DNA from: Sclerotinia nivalis
Taxonomy: Eukaryota; Ascomycota; Leotiomycetes; Helotiales; Sclerotiniaceae
Length of the DNA: 64,000 nt
Assembly: GCA_029531795.1 (NCBI GenBank)
Contig: JAPEIS010000001.1
Span: forward strand, 4,340,001 to 4,404,000
Direction of reading: 5' to 3'
Shown here piece by piece: positions 2,956-16,655 of the stretch. How positions within the stretch are numbered: position 1 is the stretch's first letter; each line of letters starts with the position of its first letter. The translations under genes and the position numbers were made by a program. Under the pieces are notes generated by a model that was not told the DNA's origin, ran no database searches, and saw nothing but the letters and a program-made list of their open reading frames with translations.

Positions 2956-3177
2956 ATGAATAACTTAATGCCGGTAATCGTGTTGGTGCAAGCACTCCTC
3001 TTCGCTGCCACAGTGGCCCTGTTTCGTAAGTGGATGCAAGACACACCACAGCCAAGGGCGGAAGATGCACCTGAGACAGGTGTTATCATCTGTACTCACC
3101 ATTACATCTTCGTTGAGCTACCCGAGCCAGACGCCATCAACCAGCCTTCGACAGAGACTGAATCAAGAACGGATTGA
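2956..3177 (+). CDS. Small predicted single-pass membrane protein, 73 aa
   Basis: I do not recognise a family. The frame encodes 73 residues: an N-terminal hydrophobic segment at about residues 4-23 (LMPVIVLVQALLFAATVALF) followed by a Lys/Trp/Gln-containing boundary and a mostly polar, acidic and Pro-rich tail. This would suit a signal anchor or a small inner-membrane or ER protein. The start is favoured because the ATG sits in a good fungal context (AAGTCAACATGAAT) after an unstructured CA-rich leader. No intron is needed. There is no homology evidence, so a chance open frame remains possible. A stop follows directly, and the downstream kilobase is empty. Confidence 0.4.
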   Translation: MNNLMPVIVLVQALLFAATVALFRKWMQDTPQPRAEDAPETGVIICTHHYIFVELPEPDAINQPSTETESRTD

Positions 3178-4185
3178 GTGAGAGGCGGCTATTGGGTGGT
3201 GTGCCGAGTAGAAGGTGCGAAGTGATCATTTCAATTGTCGAGAGCAACAAGAAAAGCCTTAGGGGAACAAAAACTGGACGAACAGTTGCGCTCCCTGGAC
3301 AATACTTCTTTCATTTGCTAAATACTTTCATTTTTCATATCAAAGAACAAAAAGCTCCCCATTCGGAGTGAAATTAAAAACATATTGACCGAACTAATAA
3401 GATTGCCGAATTTGCCTATGTAAAGTGACCGCTGTAACATCTGTGATATTCCCATTTACCTGATAAAGTGCTCATGAAATTAGCATCACTAACAACCGCA
3501 GATCTAAATCCCCAGACTAATTAGGCTATGATCCTAAGAAAAGGACACATAAACCAATGGAGAAGATATAAGGCAGCCCCAGGCATCAGTTAACCGCAAC
3601 TTTCCAAACATTTTATGAGTATACTATGAGTACATGTTTGTATGAAGAGTTCTCATATCTCCTATGCAACATTCCCGCATACTGCTTGATAACTTTCCAT
3701 GGGAAGTCGAAACATACTCGAGTTATTCGCGTATTATAAACGAACCCCTCTGACAATTTTTGAAATTCATAAATGATGGATGATATGACTGACTATGTAG
3801 ACCTTAATATTCAGACCAAGCTTAGTAGATTATCTTTTTCATTGCCGAGCGCTCCCGATTCCTTTGTCTGCGACTGAGCATTGTTACAAAAACAAAGGAA
3901 TCGAGACAGGCAAGGAACAAGCCATTGTTCCTTCATGGGAGAACATAGGGAACAGAAAATGCAAAGAAATACACAGAACAGTCCAAAGTGTTCATAACTG
4001 CAAGAACAACTCCTCACGATGCCTATAAATGTAGTCTTATTATCCACAATATGTCTCTCCATCCACTCCAGTCCAGACTCATCAACACTCCAACATCAAA
4101 GCTTCCGACAACAACGCCAACCAAAGCTCAACATCGTCTTTAATTTCAGTCCATATCACAGAAAAACTTCCGATCAACCAGCAAG
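3178..4185. other. Intergenic
   Basis: No gene I can support. AT-rich sequence fills most of it. From about 4050 it becomes rich in CAACA and CTCCA motifs that look like the 5' leader of the gene starting at 4186. Confidence 0.4.
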
Positions 4186-4539
4186 ATGTGCATTCACAAA
4201 CGCATGATCTTCACTCAGTGCGGTCATAGCCGCTGGGGCAAGGAATTAAAAGCCTGTGACCAGGAACTCGCCTTTCATATATCTCCAAACACATCCATCT
4301 CTTGCGACACAATGTATTCTCATCCAATGCATACTGTCAAGATCAATCAGCTTTGCAAGGTATGTGTAATCAAGAGAGATAATACGGATAGAACTGCAGA
4401 AAAATTGAAGCAGGCATTGAAGGATATCAGAGAAAGTGTTGAGAGAATGGAGAAGATACAAGCAATGTTTGTGACTGAAAAGAAAACATCGGTTGATGCC
4501 GATTTTGACGATGTGGAGGCCTTGGAATCATGGGATTAA
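4186..4539 (+). CDS. Small Cys/His-rich protein with C-terminal coiled coil, 117 aa
   Basis: A single-exon frame of 117 residues starting MCIHKRMIFTQCGHSRWGKE. Cys12-Gly-His14, Cys24, Cys40 and the pair Cys57-x-x-Cys60 resemble the spacing in small fungal proteins that begin with a C-x-H motif and are thought to bind zinc; that function is inference. Residues about 69-95 are Lys/Glu/Leu rich and should form a short coiled coil, and the tail is acidic, ending in ESWD. The ATG context (CAGCAAGATGTGC) and the CA-rich leader support this start. The stop codon lies in the first unit of a 37-bp tandem duplication (4524-4597), so the C-terminus may have changed recently. No signal peptide is seen. 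The gene lies about 350 bases left of the transposon end. Confidence 0.6.
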   Translation: MCIHKRMIFTQCGHSRWGKELKACDQELAFHISPNTSISCDTMYSHPMHTVKINQLCKVCVIKRDNTDRTAEKLKQALKDIRESVERMEKIQAMFVTEKKTSVDADFDDVEALESWD

Positions 4540-4597
4540 GTCAGATTTCTGGTAGGTCTCGGAATCATGAAATTCAGTCAGATCTCTGGTAGATCTT
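4524..4597 (+). repeat. 37-bp imperfect tandem duplication across a stop codon
   Basis: Two adjacent 37-base units, 4524-4560 and 4561-4597, both begin GGAATCATG and both contain a GTCAGAT-TCTGGTAG core, with six mismatches between them by eye. The first unit contains the last codons and the stop of the Cys/His-rich gene; the second lies in its 3' flank. Confidence 0.75.
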
Positions 4598-4895
4598 GTA
4601 AGATAGAGGAGGAGGGTCGACCACCGCAAGTCCGATGTTTTGCTGAGCAATACAAAATACATTGAAAAACAGAAATAGAAAGTCCAAGAAAACGATATAA
4701 TGCCAAAATGAATATAAGAGTGAAGTAAACGTAACACGGAACGTGAGACAAATGAGCAACATGAATACGCTGAAGACTCACTATCAGCCACTTGCTAAGG
4801 GAAAGTGTCTGGACATGAGAATTGAAAAGCCCACCTGTGGAATTTCACATGATTCGTACCCAATCTGTATTAGAGCTTGCGCTGATATGGTTGTA

Positions 4896-4941
4896 ACGTC
4901 CGTCCCTGCGTAGCGAGACGCACCCCGTCACGAAACAAATT
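4896..4941 (+). repeat. Left terminal inverted repeat of the transposon (46 bp)
   Basis: It begins ACGTCCGTCCCTGCGTA and ends with ACAAATT. It matches the reverse complement of 12736-12781 at 42 of 46 positions; three of the four differences are transitions. It is preceded by TA at 4894-4895. Confidence 0.9.
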
Positions 4942-5895
4942 ATAGATACTTCAAATTCAAGCGGCTCTAATTTTACGAAAGCATTGAATTATTTGTACTT
5001 TGTTGTTCTAAATATTTTATAAGTTTTTTTAGAATACTTCTAGCTTTTTGCTTTCGAAAATTTTCATCGTGTTATCGCCGCTCGTTTGAATCATGGATAA
5101 GCTTTTACTTTAGCACAATAGGACCTCTTTATTTGCATTATTATTATTAAGATCTTTCTTCATTTTGAATTTGTATAACGATTAGATATAAATTTTCACA
5201 TCTTATTACAATGCTGAGAAATAAGTGCAAGTTTTGTAATGGGTTAAAGTATGCTATTTTATATAGCGTTATCGCAAAAATGATACTTTTCCGATGAAGT
5301 AATTGAGGATATTAGTCAGCGATGGTGTAATTCTAGTAATCTCTGTAAAAAATGTAATGAAGTTTGTGATTGCTAAACACATGGTAATAGCACTTGTAGC
5401 TGGATACAATCTCGCCGGAGAATTCCGTTTCCCTGATATCCTATAAATAAAGTAAAAAGTGGCTGGTACAGAAATGGCCTACAATCTTAGATGTATTTAT
5501 AATTGTTTCGATTGTTTGATCTTTATTTATAGCATTTTATTGCTTTTTGATTTTAAAGAAGCCAGTATTTGAACAATAAAAAGCAAAGTTCTCTCAGAAT
5601 CCAGTTTGTATTGAACAAGGTCTCTATAAAATAAAGTGTTCTTCCCAATTTTTATTTTTTTGCCTTAGATATATAAATGGCTAATCAGATTACGCTACGA
5701 TATAGCCTCATTAGCAATGCTTGCGACGACGATTGTATATCTTTCTTATACCCAATTCTTCAATATCTCAATCTTTAAATTTTTTAACCTTCAAAATCTA
5801 GATCTTCAAATTGAAGTGTTTACGAAAATTTGTCGAATCAGCGATACAAATTATATTTGTTACAATAACGCTTACGAACCTTCAGTATATCTTTT
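4942..5895. other. AT-rich interior of the transposon, no gene
   Basis: Very AT-rich sequence between the left terminal repeat and the NLR pseudogene. I see no conserved coding segment; it may be the old promoter of the NLR gene. Confidence 0.5.
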
Positions 5896-8800
5896 ATACA
5901 TCTCTTGCAACGCAAACCTGATAGCGAAATCGTTTTTTGCGAACCGATCAGTGGCGAAGTCCCTCCTTATGCTATACTATTGTATACATGGGGATCAAAT
6001 GATGAGGAAGTTATTTTTGAGGATATTTTAAATGGTACTGGCGAGGTCAAGTCTGGCTATGAGAAAATCCGATTCTATAGAGAACAAGCTAGACAAGATG
6101 GACTAGAATACTTCTGGATCGATATTTGTTGTATCAATAAAGACGATGATGCTGAATTTTTACGATCTATCAATTCTATGTTTCATTGGTATTGCAATGC
6201 AGTTCGATGTTATATTTATTTGTCGGATATCTTTGGGTGTTTTGTTGGCGGTAACCATAAATGCATTCCGCGGCTATAGGAATCGGATTTCCGAAAAAGT
6301 AGATGGTTTATTCGAGGCTGGACATTTCAAGAGTTTCTTGCTTCAGTATCGGTCGAGTTTTTTTTTCGGGAATGTAGACGGCTTAGTGATAAGAGTTCTC
6401 TAATAACCCAAATTGGTAGGATAACTAATATTCCTTGTACAGCGTTTGAGGGACAATCGTTGTTTCGATTTAGCGTCGAAGAGCGATTGCGGTGGATATA
6501 ATACTGTCAGATTATACTGGTAGAAGATAAAGTGTATTCCTTATTAGGCATTTTCGATGTCTATATATTCTCTATCTATAGCAAAGGATTTGTATGTGTA
6601 TATGATCGGCTTCTAGATAAATTCCACAAGGTACAGAAATGCATCCAAGAATTATGTCTTTCTGATCTGTGTGACGATAAGAAGCGTATTGAAGAAATGA
6701 AAGGCGGTATACTACAAGATTCATATAATTGGATCTTGGAGAACTCCGAATTCCAACAATGGCGCAACGGTCAGCAAAACCGGCTACTTTGGATCAAGGG
6801 CGATTCTGGCAAAGACAAGACGATGCTACTCTACGGAGTTATCAACGAGCTAGAGAGGTTCAAAACCAAATCGGTTATTCTATCGTACTTCTTCTGCCAG
6901 GCTACAGACTCCCGAATTAATTATGCTATAACCGTCTTACGGGGTCTGATCTATTTGTTTGTTGATCAATAGCGGTTTCTCATCTTGTATATACGGACAA
7001 AGTATGATGAAACTAGTAAATCGCTTTTCGAGGATGCAAATGCCTGGATTGTGCTATCCGAGATCTTTATCAATATTTTGCAAGACCCGAGCTTAGATTA
7101 TGTATACTTAATAGTCGATGCGCTGGACGAATGCGTAACTGATTTGCCAAAATTGATGGAGTTCATTGTGCGGACTTCATCAATATCTCCTTGCATTAAG
7201 TGGGTTGTCTTCAGCCGTAATTGGCCAAATATCGAAAGGGCTTTCGATTTTGCGATACAAAATCTAAGGCTTTGTTTTGAGCTTAATGAAAAGTCCGTCT
7301 CTGCTGCTGTTACAGTATTTATCTAGTTTAAAGTGAAATGGCTAGCGATGCGAAACAAATACAGTAATGATATATAAGAAGCGATTCAGAAGTATTTAAT
7401 GTTAAACGCAAATGGTACTTTTCTTTGGGTAGCTTTGATCTACCAAGAGCTGTCCAATATTTCGGGATGGAAGGCTTTGCAGAAATTGATAGCATTTCTT
7501 CCCGGACTCGATGCCCTCTACCGGCGAATGTTAGATCAAATCATAGACTCAGAAGATGCTGAGTTATGTAAAAGTATACTGACTATCGTTTCGGCTGTAT
7601 ATCGGCCTATTACACTAAACGAACTGACGACTTTTGTGGATATACCTGATAGAGTTGCTGATGATTATGAAGCTCTATTAGAGATCATAGATCTTTGTGG
7701 CTCTTTTCTAATGATCCGAGAATGCACTGTATTCTTTGTTCATTAATCTGCTAAAGACTTTTTGATTGAAAAGGCATCTAAAGATATATTCCCTTTTATA
7801 ATGGAAAATATGTATAGCAAGATTTTTTCGCGATTATTGTAGGTTATGTCATTCGTACTTCGACATGACGTTTATAACCTATATGCTTCTGGAATCTCTA
7901 TCGATCAAATCAAACAACCCGATCCAAATCCATTAACATTAGTATGATACTTTTGTCTCTATTGGGTTGACTATCTTGTACACTCAAATATTGGAGGGAA
8001 CTCTGATAACGAAGTTAAAGATAGTGGCTCAATTTATAATTTTCTATCACAAAGTTTTCTTTACTGGCTAGAAGCATTTAGTCTTATAAAAAGCTTGCCA
8101 AATAGTATATTAATAATTAGGAAGCTTGAAGAATGGATAGATATAAGTTCCTGTATTATTTTAAGTAAGATTTGAAAATGGAATTAGATTATGTTTAGTT
8201 AATTTGGTAAAGGCAACCAAAGCCCTAATCTATATACATTTATAAATGATACAAAAAGGTTTGCTTTTTATAGTTGATCAATCATTGAGAAGACGTTCCT
8301 TCAAGTATATTGTTTAGTCTTTGTTTTCGCTCCTCAAAAGAGTATTGTCCGAATAACATTTAAAAAGGATATTCCGTCTTGGATTAAACAAAAGCCTATA
8401 GTAGAACCATATTGGAATGCGATGCTACAAACGCTTGAAGGCCATACAGGCTCCGTTTCTTCAGTCGCTTTTTCGCCTGATAGCAAGCAGGTCGTATCTG
8501 GATCTTATAATAATACAGTACAGCTTTGGGATACAGCGACAGGGCAACAAATTCAGCCAACACTTGAAGGCCATACAGACTCTGTTTACTTAGTCGCTTT
8601 TTCGTTTGATGGCAAGTAGGTTGTATCTGGATCTTATGATAATACAGTACGGCTTTGGGATACAGCGACAGGGCAACAAATTCAGCCAACACTTGAAGGC
8701 CATACAAGTTATGTTCATTCAGTCGCTTTTTCGTCTGATGGCAAGCAAATCGTATCTGGATCTTGGGATAAAACAGTACGGCTTTGGGATACAGCGACAG

Positions 8801-9342
8801 GGCAACAAATTCAGCCAACACTTAAAGGCCATACAAGTTACATTTCTTCAGTCGCTTTTTCGTTTGATAGCAAACAGGTTGTATCTGAATCTTGGGATAA
8901 TACAATACGGCTTTGGGATACAGCGATAGGGCAACAAATTCAGTCAACACTTGAAGATCATACAGACTCCATTTACTCAATCGCTTTTTCGCTTGATGGC
9001 AAGCAGGTCGTATCTGGATCTTATGATAATACAGTACGGCTTTGGGATACAGCGATAGGGCAACAAATTCAGCTAACATTTGAAGGCCATACAAGCTACG
9101 TTTCTTCAATCGCTTTTTCGCCTGATGGTAAGTAGGTCGTATCTGATTTAGATAATCCGATGTTGCTATATACTTTAGCCGTATCAGATGATTGGATTAC
9201 TAGAAATAGTACAAATATTCTTTAACTACTATCTGATTATCGTACAACAGTCACTATCATCTATCGTGATTCTGTTGTTTTAGTATAACCCTCTAGAAGA
9301 ATTTCTTTTTTTGGATTTTCATATAGATCAGAATTGCTGTAA
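5896..9342 (+). pseudogene. HET-NACHT-WD40 (HET-E-like NLR) pseudogene
   Basis: One frame (first base 5896) carries the whole architecture without a frameshift. The HET domain spans about 5896-6530 (PPYAILLYTWG, YEKIRFYREQA, YFWIDICCIN, RWFIRGWTFQE, VYSLLGIFDVY). The NACHT domain spans about 6640-7330, with a P-loop reading GDSGKDKT and Walker B YLIVDALDEC. A linker follows (NANGTFLWVALIYQELS, VYRPITLNELT, then SAKDFL). WD40 repeats start at 8434, and the end reads AVSDDWITRN then GFSYRSELL. Intact relatives such as HET-E of Podospora trigger cell death on heterokaryon or non-self recognition. In-frame stops are at 6277, 6499, 6970, 7324, 7375, 7744, 7840, 7945, 8164, 8275, 8617, 9133, 9223 and 9286. 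Family context implies most arose from CAG, CAA, CGA or TGG. The expected start codon reads ATA (5896-5898). The P-loop also lost a Gly (GKD in place of GKG). The gene is non-functional unless its transcripts are heavily edited, for which there is no evidence. Confidence 0.88.
8434..9150 (+). repeat. WD40 tandem array, 129-bp (43-aa) units
   Basis: Units start at exactly 129-base spacing: 8434, 8563, 8692, 8821, 8950 and 9079 (the last is cut short). Each encodes a 43-residue WD40 blade with the signature LEGHT, VAFS-D-K, VVSGS and LWDTATGQQIQ. Units are nearly identical at DNA level, and differences are largely C/T or G/A. Units 2 and 6 have TAG where the other four have CAG at the same codon. 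Confidence 0.9.
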
Positions 9343-10389
9343 TACAGGTTGCTCTGACAGTTAGTCATACGATATTGTAGGATCTACAGTAGATTCTACT
9401 ATAGCTGGCATAACATCGAAGGGCGTTACAACATCTATTCTATACCCTTTAGCTAGTTTGTTCAGTCTATGTATAATTCAATAGAGACCAGATAATACTG
9501 CATTGTGGTAATCACCACATAATGAATCTGATTACTGATAGGAATTATCAAGCGCTAAGCCTTTAGTTATAATATTATTGTAACGGCAGTGGTCTATTTC
9601 ATTAAGCTATTTATGATGACAAAAGAACGGTTAACCAGAATTATTCTAGTGTTAACGAAGCGCGGCTTGTACAAAAGACAAGGATGTACAAAAAGAACAT
9701 CGAGATCAGATCCTATTATAATAATCCTATACAGCTATTTTCCTCCCTACTAGTTTTGAATAGTAGAAGCTTAATAAGCTATCGGTCATTTTTAATTAAG
9801 GTGCTAATGATCAATACCGACAAAGGTGAAAGCAACATTAATTTTAGTATAGTATTCATAAATAGAATAATATTTTTCATATTATTCTTTTATTTATGCC
9901 TTAATAGTGTCTGTATAGTTAAGCAGTTTCCCCTAGAATAAGAAGTTTTTTTTCGATATCCAGCCCTCAAGCCAAAAAGAATTCCACCTTTGGAGTGGTG
10001 GATAGATCGCTTTCGAGTTTCGTGATGGTCTGATCATTTGATGACAGAATCTGTGAGGGTTGCAAGGGTGCCGAGAAGGGCACGTTATCAGTGCACTATA
10101 TCGTGATGACCTACTAAAGTCGTTGAGAGAAGCTCGGACAATGACAATAAAGCGATACCGCGGTGCACATCGCTTGCAGGCATAATGGAAAAATTATTGT
10201 AGAATAGAAACAGCATAGCAATGACGCCAAAGCTGTACCTATACAACTCATTCGTTATTTTAAAAATCGACACAGATTTCATTACGTCTGCTTTATGACA
10301 ATACTTCTCCAAGCCACCAGAAGCTTGTCTCAATTAAAGATCAATTCTATCAACTCTATCAAAACATCCTGCGACCGTCTCTTTGTCCG
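9343..10389. other. Interior of the transposon between NLR pseudogene and transposase
   Basis: AT-rich until about 9950, then more mixed. I see no conserved protein and no inner copy of the terminal repeat. The 10,000-10,389 part probably includes the transposase 3' flank. Confidence 0.45.
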
Positions 10390-12180
10390 CTAATACATCT
10401 GCGCTATTGGGGCTCTCCATGGTTCTGGTATAGTCTCATCTTCCGCGATCGGTATCCCGCTCATCTGCACTACTGAGACTGTCACTAGTGCTCGCCCCAC
10501 CTGATTGCCCGGCTCAATCGGATTTTGCGCAGCGCTCTTGCGTTTCCGATTACTCCTTATTGTATCTACGTTCTCTTCATCTGCCTCTGGCGTACCACTC
10601 TTACGCTTTCGACCGCATTTTCCTTTGTTTTTGGCTGCTCGGGCAGACTCCTTTACAGCGCGCTTTGCTCGTGCATCCTCAAGGTCCTCGTAGCTCATGA
10701 CCTTCGCCTTTCCTAATACCAACAACCTCGTCGATCGTCGAACCTTGGCTTCGTTGTTAATTGTGGTCAGGAACTGAATTTGGTCCTCCTGCAGGATGCT
10801 CCTAGCAGAAGATATTTGGAAAGCTTTAGTACATTTCTGCAAGTGCCTTGCCAAGTTTTTTTTGCTCGTTTCATCCATCGCATGAGCATCCTGTTGGATA
10901 ATCAGGTTCTGCAGTGACATGAAAGCTTCTGATGTCACAGGCGTCACAGGGGTCACAGGCATTTGCGATTCTATTTCTTGCCGACAAGACCCTACCTTCA
11001 TCTCATCGGCTCTTGGCATGCCTGGTTTGGCTGAGGGGGTAGGCATACTTCTGAGCACCCTATCTGGATTGAACGGGAACAAACCACTTGCAGCGAATCC
11101 GGCCTTGATATTCTTTGGCGTGAAGGCTTTTTCCCTTGCGAGATTATAGAGAGAGGTGAAGTGCTCCTTACCGATCGTATCTACGCCTCCTCGCTCGAGT
11201 CGATCGACCTGATCGCGATAAGCTGCCTTAAGTGAAGCAAACACTGCTACATCACAAGGCTGGAGCTTGTGGGACGTATGGGAGGGGAGACGACATAGAA
11301 GAATATTATTCTCGAAACAGAACTCTAAGATTTCGAGGGTCTCGTGCGTTCCAAAACCGTCGCAGATCAAGACGCGTGGTTTCTTGTTAGCTCGTTCTTT
11401 GGTTTCGGGATCAAATATACGCTTGAGCCACTCTAGGCTGATCTTAGAGTCAGTATATCCAGAGTCGGAGCACGCATATTGCCATTTAGGGGTAGGGAAC
11501 GTGGTCCAGTTGCTTCGATGGGTACTCGCTGGCCAGATAATCATAGGGTTTAGATACCTACCATCACCACTAATGCATTCGATCGCAGTCACAGTGGTGC
11601 GCTTGACTCGCGCGCCTCTATAATCTCGCGTATCGTGCTTACTTACGAGGACTTTGACAGAGCCTGGCATGGATAGCATCACTCCAGTTTCGTCCATGTT
11701 ATACACATTTTCGGCTAGGACAGCCGGATCTTGTAACACAACTTTTATCACCTCAAACCAGTGCGTGATCTTCCCATAAGTATTTTTCTCGTGACGATTC
11801 CAGTCCAATGCTTTGACTCTTCGTGCTATGAGTTCTGGATGGCGTTTCTCTAAAGCCTTTGTCCAGTTCCGGCCGGGAGGCTTGAGAGGTCTGTCGGTGG
11901 CAGGCCGATGATGGGTGACTCTAAAGGCTATAAAAGGGATAAACTTCATTCGTATCGGTTGTCCAAGGTCGGACATGTGTAGCAAATACTTAACGACAAC
12001 ATCTTCTTCATATGGTTTGAGATACTGTTGGCCTCGCGCCTTCTCTTCTATCGAGGGTCTTCCGCAAGCACGATGATGGAGTGTAGAATGAGGGACGTTG
12101 CCATGATCTGCAAGAGCACGGTATGACCTAGGCACGCCAGGAGGTACGCCTCGTGCTAGGACTTGACTGGCTCTGTCCAT
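10390..12180 (-). CDS. Transposase, Fot/Pogo type, DDD catalytic domain
   Basis: An uninterrupted 596-residue frame read from ATG at 12180. The frame is open further upstream to 12300 but has no other ATG. The N-terminal part (about residues 10-95) looks like paired helix-turn-helix DNA-binding domains of the Psq/CENP-B kind (SYRALADHGNVPHSTLHHRA, then WTKALEKRHPEL and RVKALDWNRH). The catalytic core follows: NMDETGV (Asp163), LICDGFGTH (Asp274) and SHKLQPCDVAVF (Asp310). The last two aspartates have 35 residues between them, as in the DDE_1 family, where the third residue is Asp and not Glu. The Lys/Arg-rich C-terminus (KGKCGRKRKSG) may be a nuclear signal. All catalytic residues are present, so it may be active. 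It would cut at the terminal repeats and insert at TA. Base composition is clearly less AT-rich than the NLR half of the same element. Confidence 0.9.
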   Translation of the reverse strand: MDRASQVLARGVPPGVPRSYRALADHGNVPHSTLHHRACGRPSIEEKARGQQYLKPYEEDVVVKYLLHMSDLGQPIRMKFIPFIAFRVTHHRPATDRPLKPPGRNWTKALEKRHPELIARRVKALDWNRHEKNTYGKITHWFEVIKVVLQDPAVLAENVYNMDETGVMLSMPGSVKVLVSKHDTRDYRGARVKRTTVTAIECISGDGRYLNPMIIWPASTHRSNWTTFPTPKWQYACSDSGYTDSKISLEWLKRIFDPETKERANKKPRVLICDGFGTHETLEILEFCFENNILLCRLPSHTSHKLQPCDVAVFASLKAAYRDQVDRLERGGVDTIGKEHFTSLYNLAREKAFTPKNIKAGFAASGLFPFNPDRVLRSMPTPSAKPGMPRADEMKVGSCRQEIESQMPVTPVTPVTSEAFMSLQNLIIQQDAHAMDETSKKNLARHLQKCTKAFQISSARSILQEDQIQFLTTINNEAKVRRSTRLLVLGKAKVMSYEDLEDARAKRAVKESARAAKNKGKCGRKRKSGTPEADEENVDTIRSNRKRKSAAQNPIEPGNQVGRALVTVSVVQMSGIPIAEDETIPEPWRAPIAQMY

Positions 12181-12735
12181 ATTATCCTGCCGTTGCGATG
12201 GTGATGTAGAAGGAGATGAGAGACGGCGCTCCAGCGACCAGGCACCAGGGTGCTGCCACCTGCTGATAGAATGTTCGAGAAACTTGCACTTACGCCACAC
12301 ACGTGCTATGACTTGACAATTGTGGCTAAGTAAAATATAGCGAGAACCGGGAGTGAGCTTAGTAAATTAGAACTCGGCTAAGTATACATTATTAAGCAAC
12401 AAGACATGAGGTTGTCTCTTCATATCGGAGTAACTCTCGGACTACATTATTTTCCTCATTAAGTGTCTTCAAAATTTGGGAGATACATTCTTTGAATATA
12501 GAACCTTTCCCCAAGTGCTCCTAATTTAAAAAAAACTCTAATAGTTGCAATCAAGCAAAGGGGAACAGCCGAAGCGGGGATCGGTAGCATCATTGAAACG
12601 ATCAATAGTATAATCAACCACAGTCTTTTTCTTATTGCTAAGTGATTTCCTTAGAGAAAAATGGCTACAGAAAGTGCTACATTAATAAAAACTTTATAGA
12701 CTCACTAAGAAAAGGTTTATGATCTCAAAACTATG
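12181..12735. other. Transposase upstream region
   Basis: Holds the transposase promoter or leader and AT-rich sequence up to the right terminal repeat. The transposase frame is open to 12300 without an ATG, so a short upstream exon cannot be excluded. Confidence 0.4.
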
Positions 12736-12781
12736 AATTTGTCTCGTGACAGGGAGCGTCTCGTTACGCAGGGACGGACGT
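12736..12781 (-). repeat. Right terminal inverted repeat of the transposon (46 bp)
   Basis: The reverse complement of this stretch begins ACGTCCGTCCCTGCGTA and pairs with 4896-4941 with four mismatches. TA follows at 12782-12783. The transposase reads away from this end. Confidence 0.9.
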
Positions 12782-13021
12782 TATATTTGATTTTAAACCT
12801 GCATACTCTGATCCAGTGTCTCTGATATAGTACATTGACCCCATTCCAATGATACAGTAAGACAGAATGGTTTCCTGACGAGAACAGTTTGTAATGCATA
12901 TTTGCAATGCAATTGCAGAATGATATCCAGTGGCCGTCTCTTGACTCTGGTATCAAACCCACGCCGGTCTCGACTGAGGTAACCGAAAACCGCACATGAT
13001 CTTGATGCCACAAGATCGAAT

Positions 13022-13663
13022 TTAACGCTCAATTTCCTCCACAGACTTGACCCTGAGCTCAGCAATTCTCAAAATTGTGTACTTGTGCTTGCTCTTCACA
13101 GTTTTTATTTTCCTGTTCCTCCTTTTCGTCTTCTCTTTGATCCTCATTGGTTCCGCCTCGGTGCCCATAACTCTCGCCCTGCACTCAAATATCCTTTCAT
13201 CCAGATAAGGCGTTCCTTTCAAGGTGTAATCTCTCGATCCAATGCTCGAAGCGGTATTGAGGCGTAAAACATCACCAGGCACTACACCAGGCATGCGAAA
13301 TGGAAGTCGTACTGTGTCTCCTACAGTCACAAGGTATGGCCGACTATAAATGTGTGTAGTTATGAAGTGTGATGGCTGGGCAGTGAGAAATGGAAGCATC
13401 TCCTTGACCGAGGGGGATAAAGACAGTGGCGCAACGCTGGGAGATGGCGCGACTGGTGCTGAAAATGCGATTGAGGAATCTGCTGGCTTTAAAGATGCTG
13501 CTGAGGGTAATGGGCTAGCATTGCTGTTCTCAATGGGCGATTCGACATGTTGTGCTGTAGAATTAAAAAAGCGTGCTCGACTTGGTAAGAGGAAGGTGGG
13601 TGGAAGTGTTGCACTTGGTATCCTTATGTCCAATAAGGACTTCCTAATCGTCCTGCTAAACAT
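13022..13663 (-). CDS. MRPL49: Mitochondrial large-subunit ribosomal protein bL21m
   Basis: A 213-residue single-exon frame. The C-terminal half is the L21 fold: HIYSRPYLVTVGDTVRLPFR, then VVPGDVLRLNTASSIGSRDY, TLKGTPYLDER and the basic stretch EPMRIKEKTKRRNRKIKTVK that contacts 23S rRNA. In yeast this protein is Mrpl49, part of the mitochondrial 54S subunit. The first roughly 40 residues (MFSRTIRKSLLDIRIPSATL and onward) are Arg/Ser-rich without acids, a good import presequence. A low-complexity Ser/Pro/Ala linker (about 45-90) separates it from the L21 domain. Length fits fungal orthologues, which carry long N-terminal extensions. It is head-to-head with NSA2 with 214 bases between the start codons, so both may be controlled from one promoter. 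Translation begins at ATG 13663. Confidence 0.92.
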   Translation of the reverse strand: MFSRTIRKSLLDIRIPSATLPPTFLLPSRARFFNSTAQHVESPIENSNASPLPSAASLKPADSSIAFSAPVAPSPSVAPLSLSPSVKEMLPFLTAQPSHFITTHIYSRPYLVTVGDTVRLPFRMPGVVPGDVLRLNTASSIGSRDYTLKGTPYLDERIFECRARVMGTEAEPMRIKEKTKRRNRKIKTVKSKHKYTILRIAELRVKSVEEIER

Positions 13664-13877
13664 CCTGAAGTCGACAATGTCGTATGATCGATGAAGTCTT
13701 TGATATTCAAATCTACAATGCTGATCTTGTTGAAGCTTAAATTCTGATGACTAATAACTTTTAAGCTAGATTTCTTTCTTTCTGCGCTAAGAAATTTGTT
13801 ATCGATAATCGTCGGCCTCGACCAAATATTTTTTTGAATCTCTAAAATTCCACAACCACACATCATAATAATTCATC
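13664..13877. promoter_or_regulatory. Shared divergent promoter of MRPL49 and NSA2
   Basis: 214 bases separate the two start codons, and nothing else fits between them. Both genes serve ribosome production (mitochondrial and cytosolic), so a common control region is likely. I did not identify a specific factor site. Confidence 0.55.
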
Positions 13878-14889
13878 ATGGTATGTCTGCAACTAGTCAC
13901 CGATCCTGGTAAATACTAATTGACTATTAATAGCCTCAAAATGAGTATATGGAAAGATGGCGCAAGCTACATGGTCGTCGCCTCGACCATGAAGAGAGAT
14001 CGCGAAAGAAGGCAGCAAGAGAAGGGCATAAAGCATCTGATGATGCCCAGAAATTGACTGGTCTACGAGCGAAGTTGTATCAGCAAAAGAGGCGTCATGA
14101 GAAGATTCAAATGAAAAAGCAGATCAAGGCTCACGAAGAACGAAATGTGAAGTCCTCTGCGCCAAACGAACCTTCGAGCACACCCTTGCCTCAATACTTG
14201 CTGGATCGATCGAACCCTACCAATGCTAAGGCATTGTCGAGCGCAATCAAGAACAAGAGAGCGGAAAAGGCTGCTAAGTTTAGTGTGCCGTTACCCAAAG
14301 TCAGAGGCATTGCAGAGGAGGAGATGTTCAAGGTGGTGAAGACTGGAAAGAAGACTGCTAAGAAGAGTTGGAAGCGGATGATCACGAAGGCATGTAGCTT
14401 TGATCTATCGGCAGGTAGAATTTTCGCTCCTTCGGAAGATGCTAATTTAAACTCTTTTTAGCCAACTTTCGTCGGTCCCGACTTCACAAGAAGACCTGTC
14501 AAATATGAGCGATTCATTAGACCTATGGGTTTGCGTTATAAGAAGGTATGTTCTTTCCGGGTGTCCAAAATTCCATGAAAATTCTAACACGCACCAGGCA
14601 AACGTTACTCACCCAGAGCTTGGTGTAACTGTGCAACTACCTATCATCAGCGTCAAGAAAAATCCCCAAAATCCAATGTACACACAATTGGGTGTTCTCA
14701 CACGAGGAACTATCGTTGAGGTCAATGTATCTGATTTGGGTTTGGTCACAGCTGGAGGAAAGGTCGTCTGGGGTAGATGGGCACAGATTACCAATAATCC
14801 CGAAAATGATGGATGCGTCAACGCGTAAGTTCATATCCTGTCCGCGCAGCTTACAAAAATTGACTTTTCTTAGTGTTCTTCTTGTTTAA
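13878..14889 (+). CDS. NSA2: Ribosome biogenesis protein NSA2 (eS8 family)
   Basis: Five exons give a 261-residue protein, the usual NSA2 length: 13878-13880, 13934-14389, 14462-14545, 14598-14824 and 14874-14889. The first exon is only the ATG; the protein then reads [20 protein letters not shown]. Other landmarks are the Lys/Arg/Glu-rich helix (residues about 15-80), then [60 protein letters not shown] and the invariant end GCVNAVLLV. NSA2 is a nucleolar factor of pre-60S particles needed for 27S rRNA processing. The second intron (14390-14461) starts with GC, not GT; joining it this way restores the family sequence ([15 protein letters not shown]). It shares a promoter with MRPL49. Confidence 0.95.
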
Positions 14890-15260
14890 AAACTTAACTC
14901 TGATATCAAATCTACATTTACGCATGGTGTTCAGGCGTTGGAAAAAGGGAAGATAAAGAAAAGGCTAGCGCAATCGCCATTAGAATTCAAATGGAGGAGG
15001 GTTGTACGCTCCATTGGCCATCTTGAGAAAACCAAGTGAAGTTGACATTATAATAACAATTTATATTTAAATGATTTTGACATCATTATTAGCTCAATTC
15101 ATTAAGAAATTATACGATGGCTCATGTGACTGCAGTTATGAAAACTGAACGCTAGACTACCTACTTTAGGCAGCCGCGATGGGATCTTTATTATCATCCG
15201 TATCCTTCGCAGAGCATGCCTTTAATCCTTCACACAATCTTCATTCTAAAACAAGACATC
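14890..15260. other. Intergenic, NSA2 3' flank and hydrolase promoter
   Basis: No gene seen; AT-rich. The hydrolase frame is also open back to an ATG at 15216. Confidence 0.5.
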
Positions 15261-16655
15261 ATGACATTAACAGCATCACAAATCGAAGCAATTGAGCGTC
15301 TAGCACCTATCAAGTTCCACAAAATTTTCAAAATTCCAGCGACGGAAACCCACTTAGAGCTCAAGGTATCCTATGCCATCGCAGGACCATCGGATAAAAA
15401 TGTACCGACTATCCTCTTTGTTGCGGGTATGTTAGGTGTACGATGGCTGGCATTTTCATTTGATCATGTGGCAACAGTAGAGGGCGTGAGAATAATTTTC
15501 ATAGACAGGTGGGTGGTATTGTCCCCTTATATTCAGCTGGGTGTTTGGCTGTCACCTCGTGCTGGCTGCGTTTTCCATTTCATCGTCCCAAGTTGAATTG
15601 AACATTCAAAACGAAACAATTTGAGCGTATATCTGGCTAGCCGAGCATGTCAATACCCTCAATGAGTCTATTGGCTCTTAGATGATGAGTCGCAATATCA
15701 AACAGAGCAGACCACACATTACCTCCATATGAAGTTACAACATCGTTCAAACTAATGTATCCCTAGGCCTGGGTTTGGAGGTTCTACTGCAGTCCCACTT
15801 CGAAACCGTTTGCCCGTTTATCTTGAGACGATTCCTCTTCTCCTTGATCATTTGAACATCAAACACGTTTCACTTGCGAGCCATAGTGCTGGGACAATAT
15901 ACGCTCTCAACATTATCGCCCGCCTCCCCCACATTATTTGTCCGGGCCGCCCCAGGATCACTCTGCTTTCTCCTTGGGTCCATCAAGATCTGTCATCGAA
16001 AACGTTCCTTCAGGTCGCTTCGATGCTTCCCAATAGTGTGATCAATCATTGGGGCTCGGTCATTAATTTCGTTTTAAACAACGCTACGCCTATGATAGCA
16101 AGTTCAGGAGGTGCGTTTGCTGCGTTAAAATCTTCCTTCTTTGCCCCAGGAGTTGCTGCAGAAACGCGGAGAGAGATGGCAGAGCAGAAGATCCGGGAGG
16201 GTTATGGCGTATCGAAAGAGACGAAAAAGGAGATGGATAATCTAGTATTCAAGTGGGCATTTCTAGAAGATACGACGGGCCTAAATGATGAGGCAAGATT
16301 GTGTTTGAAGAAGACAGATGACTGTAGTTGGGATGCTTGTGAGGATTACGAAGAGATGGTCAAATCTTTGGCGGAGATGTGGACCCAAAGAGTGGAAAGA
16401 AACCAAAGTGCGATGCTGGAAGTAAAAATCTACCTTGCTGAAGATGATATCATGACTGGCGAGAAGGGAAAAGAGTACTTCCGGAAGTGTTGGACCAGTG
16501 AGGATTGGGTTTCAGGAATCAAAGTAAACTGTGAGCAATTGGAGGGTACAGATCATGACAATGTTCTAGACCCATTGACGAGTTTACGAGAGATTGCGAG
16601 AACGGCGAAGCAGACATTTAATTGGGAGGCCCATTCTGTACCTCACAACGAGTAA
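15261..16655 (+). CDS. Alpha/beta-hydrolase, unknown substrate
   Basis: Two exons (15261-15508, 15767-16655) give 378 residues. The intron joins IIFIDR to PGFGGSTAVP, restoring the conserved hydrolase segment after strand beta-4 (D-R-P-G-F-G-x-S). Strand beta-3 is VPTILFVAGMLG. The nucleophile elbow is SLASHSAGTIYA, with the serine in S-H-S-A-G, close to the usual G-x-S-x-G. The catalytic acid is probably in KIYLAEDDIMTG and the His in LEGTDHDNVLDP. Two ATGs are possible: 15216 (15 residues longer) and 15261; I prefer the second because of its AAGACATCATGAC context, with low certainty. No signal peptide, so probably cytosolic. The reaction cannot be told from the sequence: esterase, lipase-like or epoxide-type activities are all possible. 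Confidence 0.82.

Follow-up and report, generated by a model that had tools for sequence, protein, structure and literature searches.

Fungal NLR repertoires raise the question of how they expand, move, and change their domain combinations. The mobile vehicles for NLR genes that we found in print are the giant Starships and one hAT composite, and the locus described here puts such a gene inside a transposon of a common, small type. The window is the whole stretch of DNA that was analysed, 64,000 nucleotides from Sclerotinia nivalis (contig JAPEIS010000001.1, positions 4,340,001 to 4,404,000 of the forward strand). At positions 4896-12781 it contains a 7886-bp element in which a HET-NACHT-WD40 NLR gene lies together with a full-length transposase of the DD35D Fot type; the initial annotation had read this as a transposon with an NLR as its cargo. 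We sought copies of this element in the window's own genome (50.3 Mb, 31 contigs, of which C13, C4, C9, C6, C3, and C16 are named below). The evidence leads us to consider it very probable that a Fot/pogo-type, TA-target cut-and-paste family acquired NLR genes, which it then moved inside its ends as cargo.

Anatomy of the window copy

The element is delimited by inverted arms of 48 nucleotides (4894-4941 and 12736-12783), which are 92% complementary with the flanking TA counted in; the second-best inverted pair within window positions 3000-16000 measures 29 nucleotides at 76%. Without the outer TA, the left and right terminal inverted repeats (TIRs) match at 42 of 46 positions, which confirms the 46-bp inverted ends, with TA outside both, on which the initial annotation was built (Table 1). 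Across seven ends of the family, 33 of the 46 TIR positions are identical. The TIRs are 80-93% alike, vs 60-74% for the neighbouring 300 bp, in seven of nine like-end comparisons, and the margin is only about 8-9 points in the two right-end comparisons with the C4 copy. For the ends of the window and C13 copies, the values for TIR and surroundings are 91 vs 89% and 91 vs 81%. Conservation of the TIR above the adjoining 300 bp is the pattern expected of transposase binding sites, and the TIRs are predicted to be such sites from their sequence. Just left of the element, a small ORF ends in a tandemly duplicated 37-nt unit whose two copies are 84% alike (window 4517-4590). To its right lies a gene for a ribosomal-L21-type protein (PF00829; window 13022-13663), a possible anchor for the empty site in relatives.

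Table 1. Features of the window copy (window positions; el, positions within the element)
Feature	Position	Strand	Evidence
Left TA target-site duplication	4894..4895	.	TA at right end too
Left 46-bp terminal inverted repeat, starts ACGT	4896..4941	+	42/46 to right TIR
Left terminal block common to C4 element	4894..5263 (el 1-370)	+	68%
HET-NACHT-WD40 NLR gene, pseudogene here	5953..9245	+	70% aa to C3 relative; 87% DNA to C13 copy
HET domain	5968..6225	+	PF06985, E 9.6e-11
NACHT / NPHP3_N nucleotide-binding domain, two pieces	6721..7218	+	PF24883, E 8.8e-17 and 4e-7
Winged-helix domain	7558..7722	+	PF22939, E 1.5e-6
WD40 repeat array, 129-nt units	8430..9245	+	direct repeats; tblastn of C4 WD40 protein, 49% aa, E 1e-81
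Region between NLR and transposase	9713..10358	+	in C9 (el 4820-5272 and 5299-5465), partly in C13 (el 4986-5189)
DD35D Fot-type transposase, 596 aa + stop	10390..12180	-	DDE_1, E 3.4e-31
Right terminal block common to C4 element	12289..12783 (el 7396-7890)	-	74%
Right 46-bp terminal inverted repeat	12736..12781	-	42/46 to left TIR
Right TA target-site duplication	12782..12783	.	TA on both sides in 3/3 complete copies

The transposase is the only ORF of more than 150 aa inside the element. Its frame is open over 10390-12300, and its start was placed at the Met at 12180 by alignment with 11 relatives. The resulting protein of 596 aa aligns over its full length with all of them, the closest being 90% identical (Botrytis cinerea BcDW1). 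The catalytic residues D163, D274, and D310 are invariant in all 12 aligned sequences, with a spacing of 35 residues between the second and the third, and the claim of an intact DDD transposase of the Fot/Pogo superfamily is borne out. For the DNA-binding domain of the group (HTH_psq / HTH_Tnp_Tc5), the window protein gave no HTH match even at an E of 10; among the aligned relatives, P0044 shows HTH_Tnp_Tc5 (E 1.3e-5). From the sequence we infer that the window copy is a potentially autonomous member of its family.

The HET, nucleotide-binding, and WD40 parts that characterise a fungal NLR of the HET-NACHT-WD40 type are found in one gene of the window, in the state of a pseudogene. The enclosed NLR gene of the initial annotation is therefore present, its domains recovered piece by piece, with a winged helix in addition to the HET, NACHT, and WD40 parts, but it is interrupted by 8 stops.

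Copies elsewhere in the genome

The ends were searched with TIR queries and with a 15-base end pattern, which more diverged ends would escape. There are eight exact end sites: three pairs (window, C13, and C4), a left end on C9, and one site at C4:1185236. At another seven sites, each with one mismatch, the similarity to the TIR stops at the core, and they were not taken as copies. The search thus gave three complete TIR-bounded copies, of 7886, 6369, and 6251 bp, all three with TA on both sides and all three with an NLR. Other full copies with TA on both sides, which the initial annotation had proposed to look for, therefore exist in the same genome, at C13:10953-17321 and C4:1133750-1140000. 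The site at C4:1185236 was not counted, because no partner end occurs in the 4.5 kb read and no relative was matched. It consists of a perfect 15-base end and a 30-bp TIR piece next to TA (C4:1185236-1187888; L061 1501-1530, L061/L072). An open frame of 861 aa that encodes a fungal-type protein kinase domain lies about 70 bp away, and the whole is possibly a related element with another cargo.

The C13 copy carries the same NLR as the window (87% DNA identity), in a broken form, and is devoid of the transposase. Between the left TIR and the initial part of the WD40 array, both included, the two copies are 86.6% identical; over later pieces, among them the right block, the identity is 82-87%. 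What is missing from C13 is the stretch corresponding to window 10083-12246, which holds the whole transposase gene, and C13 has an insert of about 0.36 kb that is absent from the window. The homology ends at the TIRs, and the outer flanks differ. The C13 copy is itself inserted, from TIR to TIR, at a TA of an older relative of the family; the left flank corresponds to element positions 272-575 and the right one to 590-886. When these flanks are joined with one TA, their alignment with four other members of the family continues across the junction with small gaps (inner C13 copy, 74%; window, 73%; C9, 70%; L042, 68%). The joined flanks are an empty site, read in paralogous sequence. The empty site, another of the proposed checks, can thus be read for the C13 copy, at 68-74% through the junction, but not for the window copy.

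The C4 copy has TIRs that are identical at 46 of 46 positions, and its ends are 68% and 74% like those of the window. Its interior is a different NLR, of the PigL_N-NACHT-WD40 type, in open frames. The first frame (707 aa) contains NPHP3_N/NACHT together with a PigL_N match that only just reaches its cut-off; the second (762 aa) overlaps the first and gives 13 WD40 matches. A splice must join the two frames, and there are nine candidate splices. Taken alone, the C4 element gives no significant transposase match (E 0.10).

These two copies bear on the alternative that the ends belong to two separate elements flanking a host NLR, the other copies being segmental duplications. The abundance of NLR relatives in the genome (52 matches), some of them close together on C4, C9, and C16, is what such an account would build on. 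Against it, the C13 homology stops at the TIRs, with TA on both sides and different flanks, the sequence interrupted by this copy reads through, and in C4 the same ends enclose a different gene. We regard this alternative as extremely unlikely. No complete copy lacking an NLR was found in the genome, and the window and C13 copies share the sequence from the left TIR through the NLR, so that the findings named in the initial annotation as fatal to its reading did not materialise. The reading given in the initial annotation is supported.

The NLR of C4 has one close relative, at C6:343685 (88% aa), and the frames of both are open over the NACHT part. The DNA similarity between C6 and C4 covers the NLR, the upstream region, and a short piece further out, and does not include the element ends. 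In front of the C6 NLR lies the start of a window-type transposase, from its Met and in two frames (E 3e-14), and C4 aligns to this remnant in two pieces (72% and 86%) separated by an inverted-repeat insertion of 250 bp. This insertion (L033 2323-2572) has inverted arms of 54 nt, is MITE-like, lies between the right end and the NLR, and has a relative at C16:697318. Because of the C6 remnant and its alignment with C4, the two loci probably descend from one element in which the NLR stood behind a truncated transposase, the remnant in C4 being recognised by its alignment with C6. Another DDE_1 transposase, with 29% identity, starts no more than about 0.7 kb from the C6 NLR (C6:346459-347595; L073), and it may have separated this NLR from its former right end. 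Since the NLR of the window and C13 lies on the other half of the element and is of another type than that of C4 and C6, two NLR entries are the minimum.

A one-ended copy starts at C9:812603 and has the left TIR with HET and TPR parts. No nucleotide-binding domain was detected between these parts, and this cargo is therefore described as HET-TPR and not counted as an NLR. The right end is missing; the sequence found there has matches at 37 other places in the genome among the 42 matches listed, and the frame beyond the break is putatively reverse-transcriptase-like. A relative of the C9 unit, 80-83% identical and without the left end, is found at C3:1079779-1084708. On whether copies hold the same or different genes, a point raised from the start, the answer is that both occur: C13 has the same NLR, C4 a different one, and C9 the HET and TPR parts.

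Mobilisation, decay, and fate of the cargo

A protein search of the genome, with 69 of 178 candidates scored, places only two sequences in the window's own transposase family: the window copy and a 73% identical fragment at C9:1298762. The remaining 67 DDE_1-type matches scored are 25-32% identical to the window transposase. Within 10 kb, the fragment is accompanied by neither a TIR nor an NLR match, and no complete transposase-only element was found in the genome. In the course of events that we propose, the window transposase would act by binding to the 46-bp TIRs and excising the 7.9-kb unit as a whole, and the C13 and C4 copies, which have no transposase, would move in trans. One entry would have brought a HET-type NLR onto the left half, convergent with the transposase (window and C13), and another a PigL_N-NACHT-WD40 NLR behind a truncated transposase start (C6, and also C4, judged by its likeness to C6). 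In the window and C13, the repeated HET-type NLR would then have been hypermutated from GC to AT and broken, the C4 NLR having stayed open. Several facts count against this explanation: apart from the fragment at C9:1298762, a transposase of the element's own family is present only in the window copy; the NLRs of the window and C13 are pseudogenes; the transposase match of C4 by itself is not significant; and between the closely similar window and C13 copies the TIR is hardly more conserved than what surrounds it.

The units might also have been moved by another transposase, the one in the window being a later arrival. The 67 other DDE_1-type matches would leave room for this, and the GC content of the transposase differs from that of the rest of the element. 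However, C6, and by alignment also C4, has a remnant of the same transposase in the equivalent position, and besides the outer TIRs the inverted pairs that bracket the transposase within window 3000-16000 are weak (20-29 nt, 70-76%). We find this improbable and retain the window transposase as the presumed agent of movement.

The difference in GC content (0.36 in the NLR part vs 0.50 in the transposase) reflects a cargo that is strongly mutated from GC to AT and a transposase that is not. For comparison we used the gene at C3:3261712, near telomere repeats, a relative of the window NLR that is open over HET-NACHT, has WD40 repeats, and shows 70% protein identity with each of the two element copies; no TIR core occurs there within the 5.8 kb read. 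Over residues 21-760 of this relative as the query (740 residues), the window NLR has 8 in-frame stops; the C13 NLR has 11, and a codon alignment, which omits a shared stop at the frame end, gives 8 and 10. When both strands are compared with the C3 gene, T replaces C in the window at 322 of 1143 sites, vs 101 of 898 for the reverse, and C-to-T rates are similar before A, C, G, and T. On account of this directional change without CpA preference, we rejected classical CpA-type RIP of the cargo. In the comparison of the transposase with its C9 relative, the two directions are similar (69/419 and 57/405). The left parts of the window and C13 copies differ by 567 transitions and 62 transversions over 4889 aligned sites. 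If the responsible process targets repeated DNA, the sparing of the transposase and of the C4 NLR would be accounted for. For the Tc1-Mariner elements of S. sclerotiorum, no RIP-like signal is reported (PMC4188875).

Two stops are common to the NLRs of the window and C13, where 1.2-1.4 are expected by chance, and 183 GC-to-AT differences from the C3 gene are common to both, with 113 and 117 private ones. As two stops and most of the GC-to-AT differences are common to both copies, some of the decay may be older than the most recent transposition. The NLR may thus have been intact or already partly decayed when the two copies separated.

Whether the receptor matters to its carrier is a separate issue. 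We give an even chance to the NLR being a passive passenger, rare captures having drifted with the element to no benefit. The NLRs of the window and C13 are broken, only a handful of copies was found, and capture of host genes by DNA transposons is already known (PMC12730594), all of which agrees with passive carriage. The presence of an NLR in all three complete copies, the entry of at least two types, and the frames of C4 and C6 that are open over the NACHT part speak against it, although they fall short of proving selection. A bolder and rather doubtful proposal is that of an NLR-specialised lineage, in which the Fot-type ends are a standing platform for swapping different immune or incompatibility receptors and the receptor is kept because it is useful to the element. 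If so, the receptor might make loss or mismatch costly, and the family would spread and diversify the fungal NLR repertoire, perhaps between species too.

For the cargo-carrying family itself, the occurrence of different receptor architectures between the same ends within a single genome amounts to a simple, testable route for the duplication, relocation, and exchange of NLRs. It appears that immune-type receptors can be moved and reshuffled by a transposon of an ordinary type. Carriage by such an element puts the NLR copies under the genome's defence against repeats, and the clearly bounded ends make strain surveys easier.

Comparison with known mobile elements

The element has the DD35D DDE_1 transposase, the TIR length (46 bp, within about 40-60 bp), and the TA of the Fot/pogo group, and it departs from this group in its size and in carrying more than the transposase. 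With the described Fot/pogo elements (PMC7386202) and the Tc1-Mariner elements of S. sclerotiorum (PMC4188875) it shares the DDE_1 domain, the DD35D spacing, TIRs in the range of 36-70 bp, the TA target, and the ACGT ends. Most Fot elements have TAA, and TA occurs only in the FotC and FotD clades (PMC7386202). Pogo elements measure 1.2-5.2 kb (PMC7386202) and the S. sclerotiorum elements 1.8-2.3 kb (PMC4188875), and they are described with one or two transposase ORFs, whereas the copies described here measure 6.3-7.9 kb, about three to four times the length of the S. sclerotiorum elements, and each includes an NLR. The TcMar-Pogo (Flipper) family of S. sclerotiorum is described without ACGT ends (PMC4188875), which the element here has.

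The TET/JBP-encoding DNA transposons of fungi (PMC12730594) likewise captured one class of accessory gene repeatedly, but their cargo is another one and pogo/Fot is absent from the lineages named in the abstract of that study. The initial annotation had held that NLR cargo was not known in DDE elements. This was too strong, as ToxhAT is in print; the part that stands is that we found no Fot/pogo element with NLR cargo in the literature covered (open-licence PMC papers). ToxhAT is likewise a fungal TIR element with a gene of the NLR family (patatin-TPR) and with C-to-T decay in some copies, and it is reported to move as cargo inside a Starship (PMC6737239, PMC12506042). It differs in its hAT-type transposase, its length of 14 kb, its 74-bp TIRs, the lack of a target-site duplication in these descriptions, and a patatin-TPR gene in place of a NACHT one (PMC6737239, PMC12506042). 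With its DDE_1 transposase and 46-bp TIRs, the element here is not a ToxhAT. Starships are also fungal mobile elements with NLR cargo, but they are very large and use a tyrosine recombinase (PMC12134995, PMC9594970), where the copies here measure 6-8 kb and the transposase is of the DDD type. Judged from ORFs of more than 150 aa, the window element encodes the DDE_1 transposase only and no DUF3435 captain, and it is not a Starship. The nearest precedents are therefore ToxhAT, for an NLR-type gene in a TIR element, and the Starships, for NLR cargo in general.
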